Assembly (NCBI RefSeq): GCF_000245015.1
Contig: NZ_JH600070.1
Location: forward strand, 124,001-188,000
Length of the DNA stretch: 64,000 nt
Direction of reading: 5' to 3'
DNA from: Beggiatoa alba B18LD
Lineage (GTDB): Bacteria > Pseudomonadota > Gammaproteobacteria > Beggiatoales > Beggiatoaceae
Below the pieces are notes generated by a model. That model had not been told where the DNA came from. It ran no database searches and saw only the letters and a program-made list of their open reading frames with translations. Below are positions 28,193 to 31,608 of the stretch, piece by piece; the stretch's first letter is position 1, and each line of letters begins with the position of its first letter. The position numbers and the translations under genes are program-made.

Positions 28193-28416
28193 AACCTGAG
28201 TTCGGCGAGTTTCTTTTAAAAAGACAACGGCTTGTCTGAATCAGAATTAACAAGATTTAAAACCTTTAAACCAAAAAATTAATGTGAATCACGCTTTTTA
28301 ATCCTGCTAATTCTGAAAATTCTGTGAATTCTGATTCAGACAAAAAAAGACCTGCTAGGTTTTTAAAACCTAGCAGGTCTCTGTTTTATTTTATAAAACT
28401 TGCCAAACTCAGGTTA
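28193..28416. repeat. Family A composite palindromic repeat, copy 2
   Basis: A complete copy: outer arm AACCTGAGTTCGGCGAG, inner arms GTCTGAATCAGAATT/AATTCTGATTCAGAC around an AT-rich centre, hairpin AGACCTGCTAGGTTTT/AAAACCTAGCAGGTCT, outer arm CTTGCCAAACTCAGGTT. It fills the gap between convergent nnr and the P-II-like gene, and its last bases overlap that gene's stop codon at 28414-28416. Confidence 0.9.
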
Positions 28417-28830
28417 TTCAACTAAATCTGGATGTTGTTTTATTTCTTCAGGTAAAAAGTAATCTGTCGCACGGGCAACACGTTCAACATAAATAATCCC
28501 ACTGTGTGGTTGATTAATATGTGCTTCATGGTAGAGATAGTTAAAAATTTCTGTGGCGCGTCGACGTGAAACCAGCACTGTGAGCATGTCTTTTTCTAAT
28601 TCAACAACAAAACGTGTGCGGTATAAGCTACTACTACCTGTACCGCGTGCACGGTAAATATTTGCAGTGGTAACGCCTTTTTCTGCGCGTAGTTTTTCTA
28701 AAACGATACGCGCTTCGCCCTGTGGCAAAATACAAGTAATCAGGCGATAAGGGTAACTTAAGGCAGTTCTATTATTGCTGTTGTCAGCCAGTTGAGTTTT
28801 AGAGTTCATCTTGATTATCGCCTTCATCAT
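28414..28830 (-). CDS. P-II-like nitrogen-regulatory-fold protein, second copy
   Basis: About 138 residues from ATG 28830, which has AGGTGA at good distance; ATG 28809 and the open frame to 28860 are alternatives. The P-II ferredoxin-like fold is recognisable in YRLITCILPQGEARIVLEKL, GVTTANIYRARGTG, the beta strands KDMLTVLVSRRRATEIFNYL and SGIIYVERVARATDYF. The canonical T-loop with uridylylated Tyr and the GDGKIF nucleotide loop are absent, so it is not GlnB or GlnK. It overlaps the upstream P-II-like gene by about 30 bases and so is translationally coupled to it. Together with the transporter gene it forms a three-gene minus-strand operon. Likely ligand-sensing regulator of that transporter (inference). 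Confidence 0.82.
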   Translation of the reverse strand: MMKAIIKMNSKTQLADNSNNRTALSYPYRLITCILPQGEARIVLEKLRAEKGVTTANIYRARGTGSSSLYRTRFVVELEKDMLTVLVSRRRATEIFNYLYHEAHINQPHSGIIYVERVARATDYFLPEEIKQHPDLVE

Positions 28831-29197
28831 AACGCTGATCACCTGAGTGTAAACGTTCAATCAGTTCAGGCGGAACATACGTTGCTGCTTTTTCTAAATG
28901 GGTCATGTACATAAAACCCATTCCTGGTGTGTCTAATTTAGCGGCAATGAAGATTTTCTCGAAAATATGGTCAGCTAAATCACTGGAAACAACCATTTTA
29001 ATGATTTCTTTTTCTGCGTCGATGGTAATGCTGAGTAAGCCTAAACGTTCAGCTAACCCAACACCCCGCGCGAAAAAAATCGTTGCTCCTTGCGCACCTG
29101 CTTCCCGCGCCGCATGAACAACTGCATCAGCAACCCCCCGTTGTACGATACAGGTAATTAACACAACATCTGTTAAAACGACAATTTCTTTACTCAT
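28799..29197 (-). CDS. P-II-like nitrogen-regulatory-fold protein, first copy
   Basis: A 132-residue P-II-fold protein: VVLITCIVQRGVADAVVHAA, GAQGATIFFARGVG, a beta strand IDAEKEIIKMVVSSDLADHIFEKI, then GMGFMYMTHLEKAATYVP. As in its neighbour, the classical T-loop Tyr and the GDGKIF loop are missing, so adenylyl-nucleotide and 2-oxoglutarate binding cannot be assumed. The two copies share fold and ending pattern but little identity, indicating an old duplication or a heteromeric design. It begins 14 bases after the stop of the DUF1538 transporter gene and overlaps the next P-II-like gene. Confidence 0.88.
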   Translation of the reverse strand: MSKEIVVLTDVVLITCIVQRGVADAVVHAAREAGAQGATIFFARGVGLAERLGLLSITIDAEKEIIKMVVSSDLADHIFEKIFIAAKLDTPGMGFMYMTHLEKAATYVPPELIERLHSGDQRYDEGDNQDEL

Positions 29198-29210
29198 AAT
29201 CCTTACGTCA

Positions 29211-31004
29211 TTAAATAATAGGGTTAGTAGAAAGGATGGGGGGTTTTATCGCGGGTTTAGCGCGTTTAGCATCTTCTAAAATAAGATGAACTTGTTGTTT
29301 GGTTTTATGGCTACGGCGAACTTGCCATTCTATCCATAAGCCTGTAATTAAGACGGTTAAAATAGGACCAATCGAGGCTAGAGCCAAAATACCAAAGCCT
29401 TCTAATGCGTGTAGTGAATTGCCTAAACCTAGTCCTAAAGCAAGCACTAACGGCACGGTAACAGGACCTGTCGTAACGCCCGCACTATCCCATGCAATAT
29501 TGACATATTCTTCTTTACACATAATGGTCAGAATAATTGCAACGACATATCCGGGTATGAGCAGATAAGCAAGTGGCACGCGGTAGATAAGCATTAACAC
29601 ACCACAGCCAATACCAAACGCAACCCCTAAAGAAACCGCATAAATTAATAAATTCTTTTTGTAAGAACCTTGGGTTAAGGTTTCGACGGTTAAACCAACG
29701 GCATGTAAAGCAGGTTCTGCTAACGTTGCGCCAAATCCTAAAAACCACGCAAAGACAAAAATAATCGTTGCACCTATCCAGTGTTCACTAAAACGTTCAA
29801 ACACGCTGGGTACTAAACCGCCTGTTTGTGTGCCTAATTTAGTTAAACCGTGAGTTAATCCTAAATTGAAGACAATCATACCGATGATTGCCAAAATAAT
29901 GCCGTAGGCGACAAATTTTTGTTTGGGAATTTTTTCTTTTAAAATAAAGACCATCACGCAAAATAAGAAAATCACTAACGGCACAATTGCCCGAATTCCT
30001 GAGATGATTTCAAAAAAAGGCGTAGTTTCATACCAAGGTAATGCACCTGTCACAACCCCTTGTTGTACTATGCTTAAAATGGTTTCTACAGGCACAGTTG
30101 CCTTGATGTAAACCCCCAATAGTAGTACACCCAAAATGGGGAAAATTGAGGCGAGGGTGACAATGCCAAATCCTGCCAGTGCGTTATCACTACGCCCTGT
30201 TGCAGCAGCAATCCCAATTCCTAAAGAAAGCACTAAAGGTACGGTAACAGGCCCCGTTGTGACTGCGCCACAATCCCATGCTAAACCTAAAATATTGCGC
30301 AAATCGCTATCGCCGTGCATGTAAAAACTTAATAATAGTGTTGGAATTAACGTCATATAAATCAGTGGTTTTAAATTCCACAATTTAATTAAACGTAACG
30401 TTGCCACCACCGCCGCCAAACCTACGCCAATGCCAACAACCAGCACTAATGCACCGCTGCGATGATTGAGTATGAAATATAAATAAGTTGCTTGATAAGG
30501 GTCGACAATACTGCCCGCTGCTTTCAACGCACCAATCGCAGGTTCGGCTAAAGTAACCCCTATGCCAAGCAGAAAAACAATGAATAAAACGCCGTTTAAA
30601 CCCAATTTACGCGGTAACACATCGCCAATATTTTCACCAAACGGCATTAATCCATATTTCAGCCCTTCCATGAACAGCATAAGCCCAATAACAACAGCAA
30701 ATAATCCAAATAAGATAACCTGCAACTCATTAATATTTGCGAGTAAAATATACTCCTGAAATAAATAGAGATAAAAAGCAATCGGTAAAATTGCTCTTAA
30801 TTGGTCAAACAAACGCACTTGTATATAAGGTTGCAATAATCGATAAACATCTAACCAACGTAGATGAATCTTAGGCGGGGTGTAGTGTAATTCATGCCCT
30901 TCAGGGTCATACTCTGGCTTATGGGTAATTTGGTTATAACTAACAATCTTCTGTTGGACAGTAGCGGCACTCATGACCTCGCCGTAACGATATTTTTTAT
31001 ACAT
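29211..31004 (-). CDS. Fused double-DUF1538 (UmpAB-like) membrane transporter
   Basis: A 597-residue inner-membrane protein made of two homologous halves. Each contains a GVTLAEPA/GATLAEPA motif and later a block AWDCGAVTTGPVTVPLVLSL/AWDSAGVTTGPVTVPLVLAL followed by GFGIVTLASIFPILG/GFGILALASIGPILT. These are signatures of DUF1538. From memory, a paired two-gene version (UmpA/UmpB) from Halomonas was reported to act as a cation/proton antiporter; here both halves are in one chain. A cytoplasmic N-terminus of about 65 residues precedes the first helix. Start uncertain: ATG 31004 or 30974, neither with an ideal ribosome site. Two P-II-like genes follow directly. Confidence 0.88.
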   Translation of the reverse strand: MYKKYRYGEVMSAATVQQKIVSYNQITHKPEYDPEGHELHYTPPKIHLRWLDVYRLLQPYIQVRLFDQLRAILPIAFYLYLFQEYILLANINELQVILFGLFAVVIGLMLFMEGLKYGLMPFGENIGDVLPRKLGLNGVLFIVFLLGIGVTLAEPAIGALKAAGSIVDPYQATYLYFILNHRSGALVLVVGIGVGLAAVVATLRLIKLWNLKPLIYMTLIPTLLLSFYMHGDSDLRNILGLAWDCGAVTTGPVTVPLVLSLGIGIAAATGRSDNALAGFGIVTLASIFPILGVLLLGVYIKATVPVETILSIVQQGVVTGALPWYETTPFFEIISGIRAIVPLVIFLFCVMVFILKEKIPKQKFVAYGIILAIIGMIVFNLGLTHGLTKLGTQTGGLVPSVFERFSEHWIGATIIFVFAWFLGFGATLAEPALHAVGLTVETLTQGSYKKNLLIYAVSLGVAFGIGCGVLMLIYRVPLAYLLIPGYVVAIILTIMCKEEYVNIAWDSAGVTTGPVTVPLVLALGLGLGNSLHALEGFGILALASIGPILTVLITGLWIEWQVRRSHKTKQQVHLILEDAKRAKPAIKPPILSTNPII

Positions 31005-31158: not shown

Positions 31159-31608
31159 TTAAGCACTTTTTGATTCATGTACCGTCAGCCCCGCTTCTTT
31201 AACAACACCATCCCCTTGTAATTTTCCTTGTAACAACACAATACAAGCTTTTCCTTCTGCTTTGAGTGCATCAATTTTATTTAACGTGCGTCGATAATTC
31301 GTAGGGCTAAAAGGCACGGTTAACCACAAAGTTTTCCCCGCCTCTTCTGGTACGGCTAATTTCCAAATCACCTTCATCTTAGAACTGTGACTTAAACCAA
31401 CAGGCGGGCAAATCTCATACGGTATGCTATCTGCGGGCAATACCACAGAAATTTTAATACTATCTAATAAAACCGTATCCCCATGATATTTCTTAACAGG
31501 TTTAGAATTCGTGGCAGCAGGGGCTGTGGTCGCGGTTACAGGATTGATAGGCGTTGATTCTGCTGTATCGCTTATTACTGTTTTTTTCTTTAAAGATAAT
31601 GTTGCCAT
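31159..31608 (-). CDS. Hypothetical protein
   Basis: A 149-residue protein that I do not recognise. GAGGTG lies close before the ATG, so it is probably expressed. The first 40 residues are low-complexity (Thr/Ala/Pro-rich, TATTAPAATNSKP). The rest looks compact and beta-rich, with IKISVVLPADSIPY, KMKVIWKLAVP, KTLWLTVPFSPTNYRRTL and ACIVLLQGKLQGDGVVKEAGL. No signal peptide, membrane helix or cysteine-rich tail, so it is not an obvious substrate of the divergent radical SAM gene 130 bases away. It stands 150 bases upstream of the DUF1538 operon on the same strand and could be part of that transcript, but the gap is large. Confidence 0.65.
   Translation of the reverse strand: MATLSLKKKTVISDTAESTPINPVTATTAPAATNSKPVKKYHGDTVLLDSIKISVVLPADSIPYEICPPVGLSHSSKMKVIWKLAVPEEAGKTLWLTVPFSPTNYRRTLNKIDALKAEGKACIVLLQGKLQGDGVVKEAGLTVHESKSA

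Follow-up and report, generated by a model that had tools for sequence, protein, structure and literature searches.

What would a membrane transporter of the DUF1538 family do with two P-II-like proteins encoded directly behind it? P-II proteins are known from the textbooks as sensors of nitrogen and carbon, and a P-II gene beside a transporter gene is an arrangement of a known kind. The question arises here from a three-gene operon (Table 1) of Beggiatoa alba B18LD, in a stretch of 64,000 nucleotides (contig NZ_JH600070.1, positions 124,001 to 188,000; hereafter the window), in which the gene for a fused, UmpA-UmpB-like transporter is followed by those for two divergent P-II-like proteins, P-II-A and P-II-B. 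Our preferred answer, to which we assign a probability of roughly 0.6, is that the transporter is an antiporter with a P-II gate of its own, A and B probably forming a mixed trimer on its cytosolic face and restraining antiport depending on the adenine nucleotide bound to them. More tentatively, we suggest that DUF1538 antiporters may be a large P-II-gated class whose P-II proteins form a clade of their own and whose sensor part can be exchanged, the window's type being an asymmetric hetero-assembly on a pseudo-two-fold, rather than three-fold, transporter. The family, the gene order, its conservation, the clade and the mutual exclusion of CBS-domain genes and second P-II genes are read from sequence, while we infer that the fused protein carries out antiport, that A and B dock on it, inhibit it and assemble with each other, and that their ligand is a nucleotide.

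The transporter and its two P-II-like partners

The open reading frames (ORFs) on the minus strand bear out the tight packing of three genes described in the original prediction. The gap between the transporter gene and that of P-II-A is 13 bases (29198-29210), not 14 as first given, whereas the overlap of about 30 bases between the two P-II genes depends on the uncertain start codon of P-II-B (28860, 28827 or 28809): it is 62 bases with the TTG start, about 29 with an inner ATG, and 11 with the ATG of MNSKTQ. Two DUF1538 halves in one chain had also been claimed, and Pfam PF07556 (DUF1538) indeed matches the transporter in two stretches, with 348.8 bits; in the NCBIfam models the order is UmpA (residues 65-298) and then UmpB (335-567), both under the curated cut-offs.

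The original prediction spoke of a cation/proton or other antiporter and could put no name to the pairing; the family of the transporter does have a name, through UmpAB. Namely, UmpA and UmpB of Halomonas zhaodongensis constitute a Na+(Li+,K+)/H+ antiporter that is active in E. coli KNabc, which is rescued by constructs carrying umpA and umpB only (PMC5484666). The window's protein resembles UmpAB (PMC5484666) in its family, in an N-terminal half like UmpA and a C-terminal half like UmpB, and in the shared AEP and D..GVTT motifs. Unlike the split pair, it is a single polypeptide that bears an additional arm at the N-terminus, and it scores under the NCBIfam equivalog cut-offs. We conclude that it is probably a monovalent-cation/proton antiporter, and the earlier proposal of a cation/proton or other antiporter under the control of P-II-like proteins gains to that extent from UmpAB and from the near-universal linkage described below.

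Five residues are invariant in 69/69 aligned fused proteins, namely E154 and E430 of the AEPA motif, D244 and D506 of the D..VTTGP motif, and R204; the AEP and YDSGGVTTS motifs are kept in split UmpA and UmpB as well (90 pairs). In each half, a Glu (AEPA) and an Asp (WD..VTTGP) may take part in the ion path. The first AEP motif lies at a median residue of 153 in the two-P-II transporters (n=77, range 106-154), as against 100 in split UmpA (n=82), and at residues 98-125 in fused single-P-II proteins (n=9). Judging from the sequence, the two halves probably lie in the membrane in opposite orientation. In particular, a topology that starts in the cytosol, runs through seven helices and an inverted second seven, and ends in the cytosol agrees only partly with the basic residues: those of the N- and C-tails and of loops L23, L67, L12b and L34b fit, whereas L45 and L56b are nearly free of them and three outer loops have 0.8-0.9. 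The AlphaFold2 model of the transporter is of good internal quality (predicted local distance difference test, pLDDT, 88.8; predicted template modelling score, pTM, 0.87), and against the PDB it has no match at E<=0.001. The best Foldseek match is weak (E 0.036, prob 0.33), as is the best VIA match (Z 6.7, root-mean-square deviation, rmsd, 6.7 over 118 residues), which is no proof of a new fold; the transporter profile matched none of the PDB sequences up to E 5.

Turning to the regulators, both had been said to keep the P-II fold. For P-II-A this fold is predicted by a structure model (pLDDT 81.5, pTM 0.66), which has 275 Foldseek matches in the PDB at E<=0.001 (best E 9.7e-8, prob 1.00), the best 50 of these 275 all being P-II entries, and which reaches Z 12.4 in VIA (rmsd 3.4, 99 aligned residues). 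PstA and a NIF3-related protein come nearly as close (VIA Z 11.1-11.4), and the fold therefore singles out no subfamily. For P-II-B the assignment is a profile match. The Pfam P-II model gives 32.8 bits for A and 26.6 for B, both above the gathering cut-off of 25, and at E<=0.01 it detects 50/51 A rows of the family and only 25/50 B rows; the family profiles match solved P-II proteins with best E-values of 6.6e-8 (A) and 8.6e-6 (B). What is more, P-II-B is far more variable than P-II-A, with a mean column identity of 39% vs 57%.

Aligned with the genome's two canonical P-II proteins, A and B lack the T-loop Tyr and the GDGK loop, just as first noticed, and also the C-loop Arg pair, all of them elements of canonical P-II proteins. 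P-II-A retains the pocket glycines and a Lys at the place of canonical Lys58. That A and B are canonical GlnB/GlnK proteins we reject on these missing residues and, within its limits, the tree below. A search of the window's genome found two strong P-II genes elsewhere besides P-II-A, P-II-B not being separately listed, and it found no second DUF1538 gene.

Linkage and a separate branch of P-II proteins

A scan for fused transporters gave 113 relatives, the best 80 of which were kept and examined. Their labels are for the most part Proteobacteria, and otherwise Bdellovibrionales, Gemmatimonadetes, Myxococcota, Elusimicrobia and Lentisphaerae, though the majority come from metagenome bins, in which taxon labels can be mistaken. 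P-II-A follows the transporter in all 77 readable loci, the other 3 stopping at a contig edge, and P-II-B follows P-II-A in 75/75, with 2 more stopping at a contig edge. Such constancy of the order transporter-A-B makes chance adjacency unlikely. A reverse search from the P-II protein, in which the best 30 of 54 matches were fetched, found DUF1538 upstream in 30/30, and conservation and reverse search together rule chance adjacency out. The neighbourhood check suggested in the original prediction thus came out in its favour, P-II adjacency being near-universal in readable loci from either side, and the other outcome that would have refuted it, a structure prediction lacking the P-II fold, did not occur for P-II-A.

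The same holds for the window's class at large. DUF1538 is present in 125/369 sampled genomes of the class and absent from 14 well-known control genomes. Of the other 124 such genomes, 123 (all but G219) supplied the 127 loci that we surveyed, further DUF1538 copies of several genomes being left aside; four of the loci also belong to the fused set (L204, L205, L210 and L211, identical to L037, L096, L095 and L110). A P-II gene belongs to the operon in 121 of 122 readable loci; five were unreadable, four at or near a contig edge (L023, L184, L196, L197) and one with a run of N in the gene (L213). By script, the P-II gene lies at most 400 bases downstream in 118 loci. In L155 it sits between two DUF1538 genes, in L199 the order is P-II, CBS, transporter, and in L156 umpB and the P-II gene are kept apart by an insertion (~1420-2740) that looks by eye like a transposase gene, the CBS gene coming after the P-II gene. 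The one true exception is L188, a lone umpA beside which no P-II gene was found.

No fourth conserved gene was found near the two-P-II cassettes when flanking genes of the 80 loci were clustered. The biggest of the clusters, with 16 loci, runs across P-II-A on the opposite strand and was read as an antisense ORF, and the next-largest comprise 7 loci each. A gene resembling by eye a CPA1-type Na+/H+ exchanger lies near the cassette in 5/80 loci, including L041:2545-5001.

The P-II proteins themselves form a group apart. In a tree of 121 columns, comprising 48 DUF1538-linked rows and, for comparison, GlnB/GlnK (9), DabA-linked (7), Sbt-linked (6) and RND-linked (5) rows, all 48 fall on one side of a branch with 98/97 support, apart from GlnB/GlnK and the other transporter-linked P-IIs. 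Within the limits of this tree, the branch speaks against the DUF1538-linked proteins being simply Sbt_1-linked (SbtB-like), DabA-linked or RND-linked (PII-NG-like) ones. Note that 121 columns are few for such a tree, that the T1 and T3 rows were left out and the other groups thinned, and that the comparison set holds no named SbtB or PII-NG. Of its 20 fetched loci, L287 and L288 were dropped for want of a P-II match in the chosen ORF; the transporter label is confirmed by Pfam on the neighbour in 6/18 (L279, L286, L289, L290, L291, L292) and given by eye or by likeness in the rest, no matching neighbour being confirmed for L278, L293, L295, L296 and L297. An earlier tree, also of 121 columns and with a bootstrap that had not settled, splits A, B and a group of S, F1, alpha and clostridial sequences (87/92, 98/89 and 98/90). 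With the comparison rows added, B is still supported (98/89), A is unresolved and the third group is not recovered. Other divergent P-IIs of the class, for their part, adjoin DabA-like or Sbt_1 transporters (L279-L285; L289, L291, L292; Pfam on four neighbours).

Apparent exchange of sensors and the proposed gate

The original prediction had dwelt on two P-II subunits, but this is not how such loci are generally built: 109 loci of the class survey have a single P-II, mostly together with a CBS-domain gene. In particular, such a gene is found in 79/82 single-P-II loci with at least 400 bases beyond the P-II gene, or, in a stricter count of CBS ORFs directly behind P-II, in 76/81. Among the fetched loci, it occurs in 0/72 distinct two-P-II loci and in 0/4 loci with three P-II domains (L058 and L113 being counted as two-P-II loci, their long ORFs as upstream extensions, and the figure of 72 allowing for the four loci present in both sets and for L103 and L104, which have an identical tail). 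The sensor parts thus look swappable, a CBS protein standing where the second P-II would be, and in these relatives it may serve as the second sensor in its place. Each of the four CBS proteins tested has two CBS stretches according to Pfam, and the closest solved relative of one of them, from a single-P-II operon, is CBS-CP12 (E 6.7e-26), which is reported to bind AMP (PMC9406205). Because the module that stands in for the second P-II is related to a CBS protein reported to bind AMP, this nucleotide is our first guess for the ligand of A and B. CBS-CP12 of cyanobacteria (PMC9406205, PMC9514657) differs in being fused to CP12 and acting on phosphoribulokinase, and the window's operon has no CBS gene.

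P-II domains are also joined in one chain. Four class loci (L192, L202, L203, L207) encode a chain of ~390 amino acids with three P-II-like domains, the parts of which match P-II-A with hhalign probabilities of 98.4, 99.5 and 97.0, as against <1 for a DUF1538 control. The third domain is seen clearly by single-protein search in L192 only, the other three chains resting on profile comparison, and Pfam recognizes one P-II stretch or two in these chains, never three. Two clostridial loci on large plasmids (L118, L120) combine a fused DUF1538 gene with a 222-amino-acid double-P-II protein. Pfam reports one stretch in this protein and misses the first domain, which our own P-II profiles match (E ~1e-12); hhalign gives 96.2 and 96.8, and 0.16 for the DUF1538 control. 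In both trees these two domains pair with each other (96/87 and 91/87), so the doubling of P-II probably happened more than once. These natural two- and three-domain chains favour a putative mixed A-B assembly. As side observations, the genome G357 carries three DUF1538 systems (L192, L214, L215), namely a fused transporter with triple P-II, a fused one with A/B and a split one with a single P-II, and in the triple-P-II locus L203 (2702-4590) the transporter falls into two ORFs of 489 and 128 amino acids.

How would the gate work? We propose that P-II-A and P-II-B, probably as a mixed trimer, dock on the cytosolic face of the transporter and hold antiport back depending on which adenine nucleotide is bound, much in the manner of SbtB on SbtA. 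Two different P-II proteins that act together are known in NifI1-NifI2, whose target, nitrogenase, is a different one. That P-II proteins control secondary transporters is established knowledge in two cases, SbtA (PMC8352866) and AmtB (PMC10710835). SbtA-SbtB resembles the window's system in joining a secondary transporter with inverted repeats to an operon-linked P-II-like partner, but SbtA, which transports bicarbonate, is a trimer and has a single kind of P-II (PMC8352866), and the Sbt_1-linked P-IIs lie in another branch. GlnK-AmtB likewise has linked genes and a transporter gated by P-II, but GlnK is canonical, with the long T-loop, Tyr and GDGK loop that are absent from A/B (PMC10710835). 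PII-NG with CzcABC is again a non-canonical P-II beside a proton-driven cation exporter (PMC7726332), the differences being that CzcABC is an RND pump and that the RND-adjacent P-IIs examined fall outside the DUF1538-linked clade. UmpAB works in E. coli without a P-II of its own, and the P-II thus probably inhibits or modulates the transporter.

That said, several points weigh against this proposal. The NCBIfam scores of the transporter (216.3 and 176.2 bits) fall well below the equivalog cut-offs of 490 and 500; those cut-offs are narrow, as five tested split pairs of the window's class miss them too (UmpA 365.5-388.3, UmpB 324.5-356.8 bits), and on this evidence we do not class the transporter as an UmpAB equivalog, though its two DUF1538 domains run UmpA-like and then UmpB-like. 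UmpAB is reported to be a heterodimer, so that P-II docked on it would be out of the ordinary, or else would imply that UmpAB units come together in threes. E. coli has GlnB and GlnK of its own, and the published UmpAB assay was therefore not P-II-free. Furthermore, the T-loop region of A and B is 5 alignment columns shorter than the canonical one, so plugging in the manner of GlnK may not work. Most of the canonical phosphate-binding residues are gone, which makes the binding of nucleotides doubtful, and with it canonical binding of ATP and 2-oxoglutarate. Five loci (L116, L117, L198, L155, L181) have one P-II and no CBS gene seen beside it, so that two sensors are not obligatory. Finally, no binding or activity data for DUF1538-linked P-IIs were found in the open-access literature.

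Among other explanations, the one that survives best, unlikely as we consider it, is that A and B are homotrimers with separate jobs, one gating the transporter and the other signalling elsewhere, e.g. to transcription. The much greater variability of B and the separate grouping of A and B in the earlier tree would fit such a division of labour; the adjacency of B to A in every readable locus, and the existence of P-II domains in chains of two (the clostridial plasmids) and three (the four class loci), speak for joint action instead. Somewhat less probable still, the P-IIs would be no inhibitors but activators or energy couplers, keeping the antiporter active at high energy. CBS and P-II proteins can, after all, act either way, and the operon is conserved as one unit. 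However, UmpAB conferred salt tolerance on E. coli without its own P-II (PMC5484666), and a cognate activator is thus not needed there.

It is improbable that the transporter carries another ion, such as bicarbonate, and is no cation antiporter. While divergent P-IIs of the class also adjoin inorganic-carbon transporters (DabA, Sbt_1), these branch apart from the DUF1538-linked ones, antiport by UmpAB has been measured (PMC5484666), and DUF1538 appears in the pH-adaptation gene table of a growth-pH predictor (PMC13255231). Finally, the idea that the linkage reflects co-inheritance on a mobile or selfish unit, with no physical interaction, is in keeping with the location of some cassettes on plasmids, but it is highly implausible given the same order and short overlaps across differently labelled phyla, the repeated rebuilding of the sensor part, and the finding that no real flanking gene family is common to more than 7/80 loci.

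Surroundings of the operon and meaning for the family

A hairpin lies between the operon and the convergent gene for NAD(P)H-hydrate dehydratase (Table 1). Upstream of the operon, a 149-amino-acid protein (31159-31608, minus strand) has no Pfam match above cut-off and no NCBIfam match.

Table 1. The operon, the parts of its transporter and a nearby hairpin, in positions of the window
Feature	Position	Strand	Basis
DUF1538 transporter gene, fused UmpA-UmpB-like, probable antiporter, 597 amino acids	29211-31004	minus	ORF, Pfam, NCBIfam, AlphaFold2 model
N-terminal arm, extra ~53 residues, basic, two-P-II type	30846-31004	minus	position of first AEP motif
UmpA-like half, invariant E154 and D244	30111-30812	minus	NCBIfam, alignment
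UmpB-like half, invariant E430 and D506	29304-30002	minus	NCBIfam, alignment
P-II-A, divergent P-II-like, 132 amino acids, shortened T-loop	28799-29197	minus	Pfam, family profile, predicted structure
P-II-B, second, more variable P-II-like, <=148 amino acids (TTG start)	28414-28860	minus	Pfam, family profile
Hairpin with T tail, likely terminator	28346-28382	both (17 and 15 pairs)	consensus match only

In the open-access literature we found no paper that pairs DUF1538 with nitrogen regulatory protein P-II, nor did we find the private clade, the exchange of CBS and second P-II or the three-domain P-II chains in print. The main text of the UmpAB report does not contain the terms 'P-II', 'PII' or 'GlnB' (PMC5484666). 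UmpAB, published without regulators, thereby becomes testable as a regulated complex. What is more, the exchange of CBS and P-II modules and the three-domain chains are natural material on how P-II assemblies read several signals. The near-constant pairing with a private P-II branch suggests that bacteria switch this pump on and off directly. If true, the state of the cell would be linked directly to its ion and pH balance in many bacteria, through P-II proteins of a clade that belongs with a Na+/K+/H+ antiporter.

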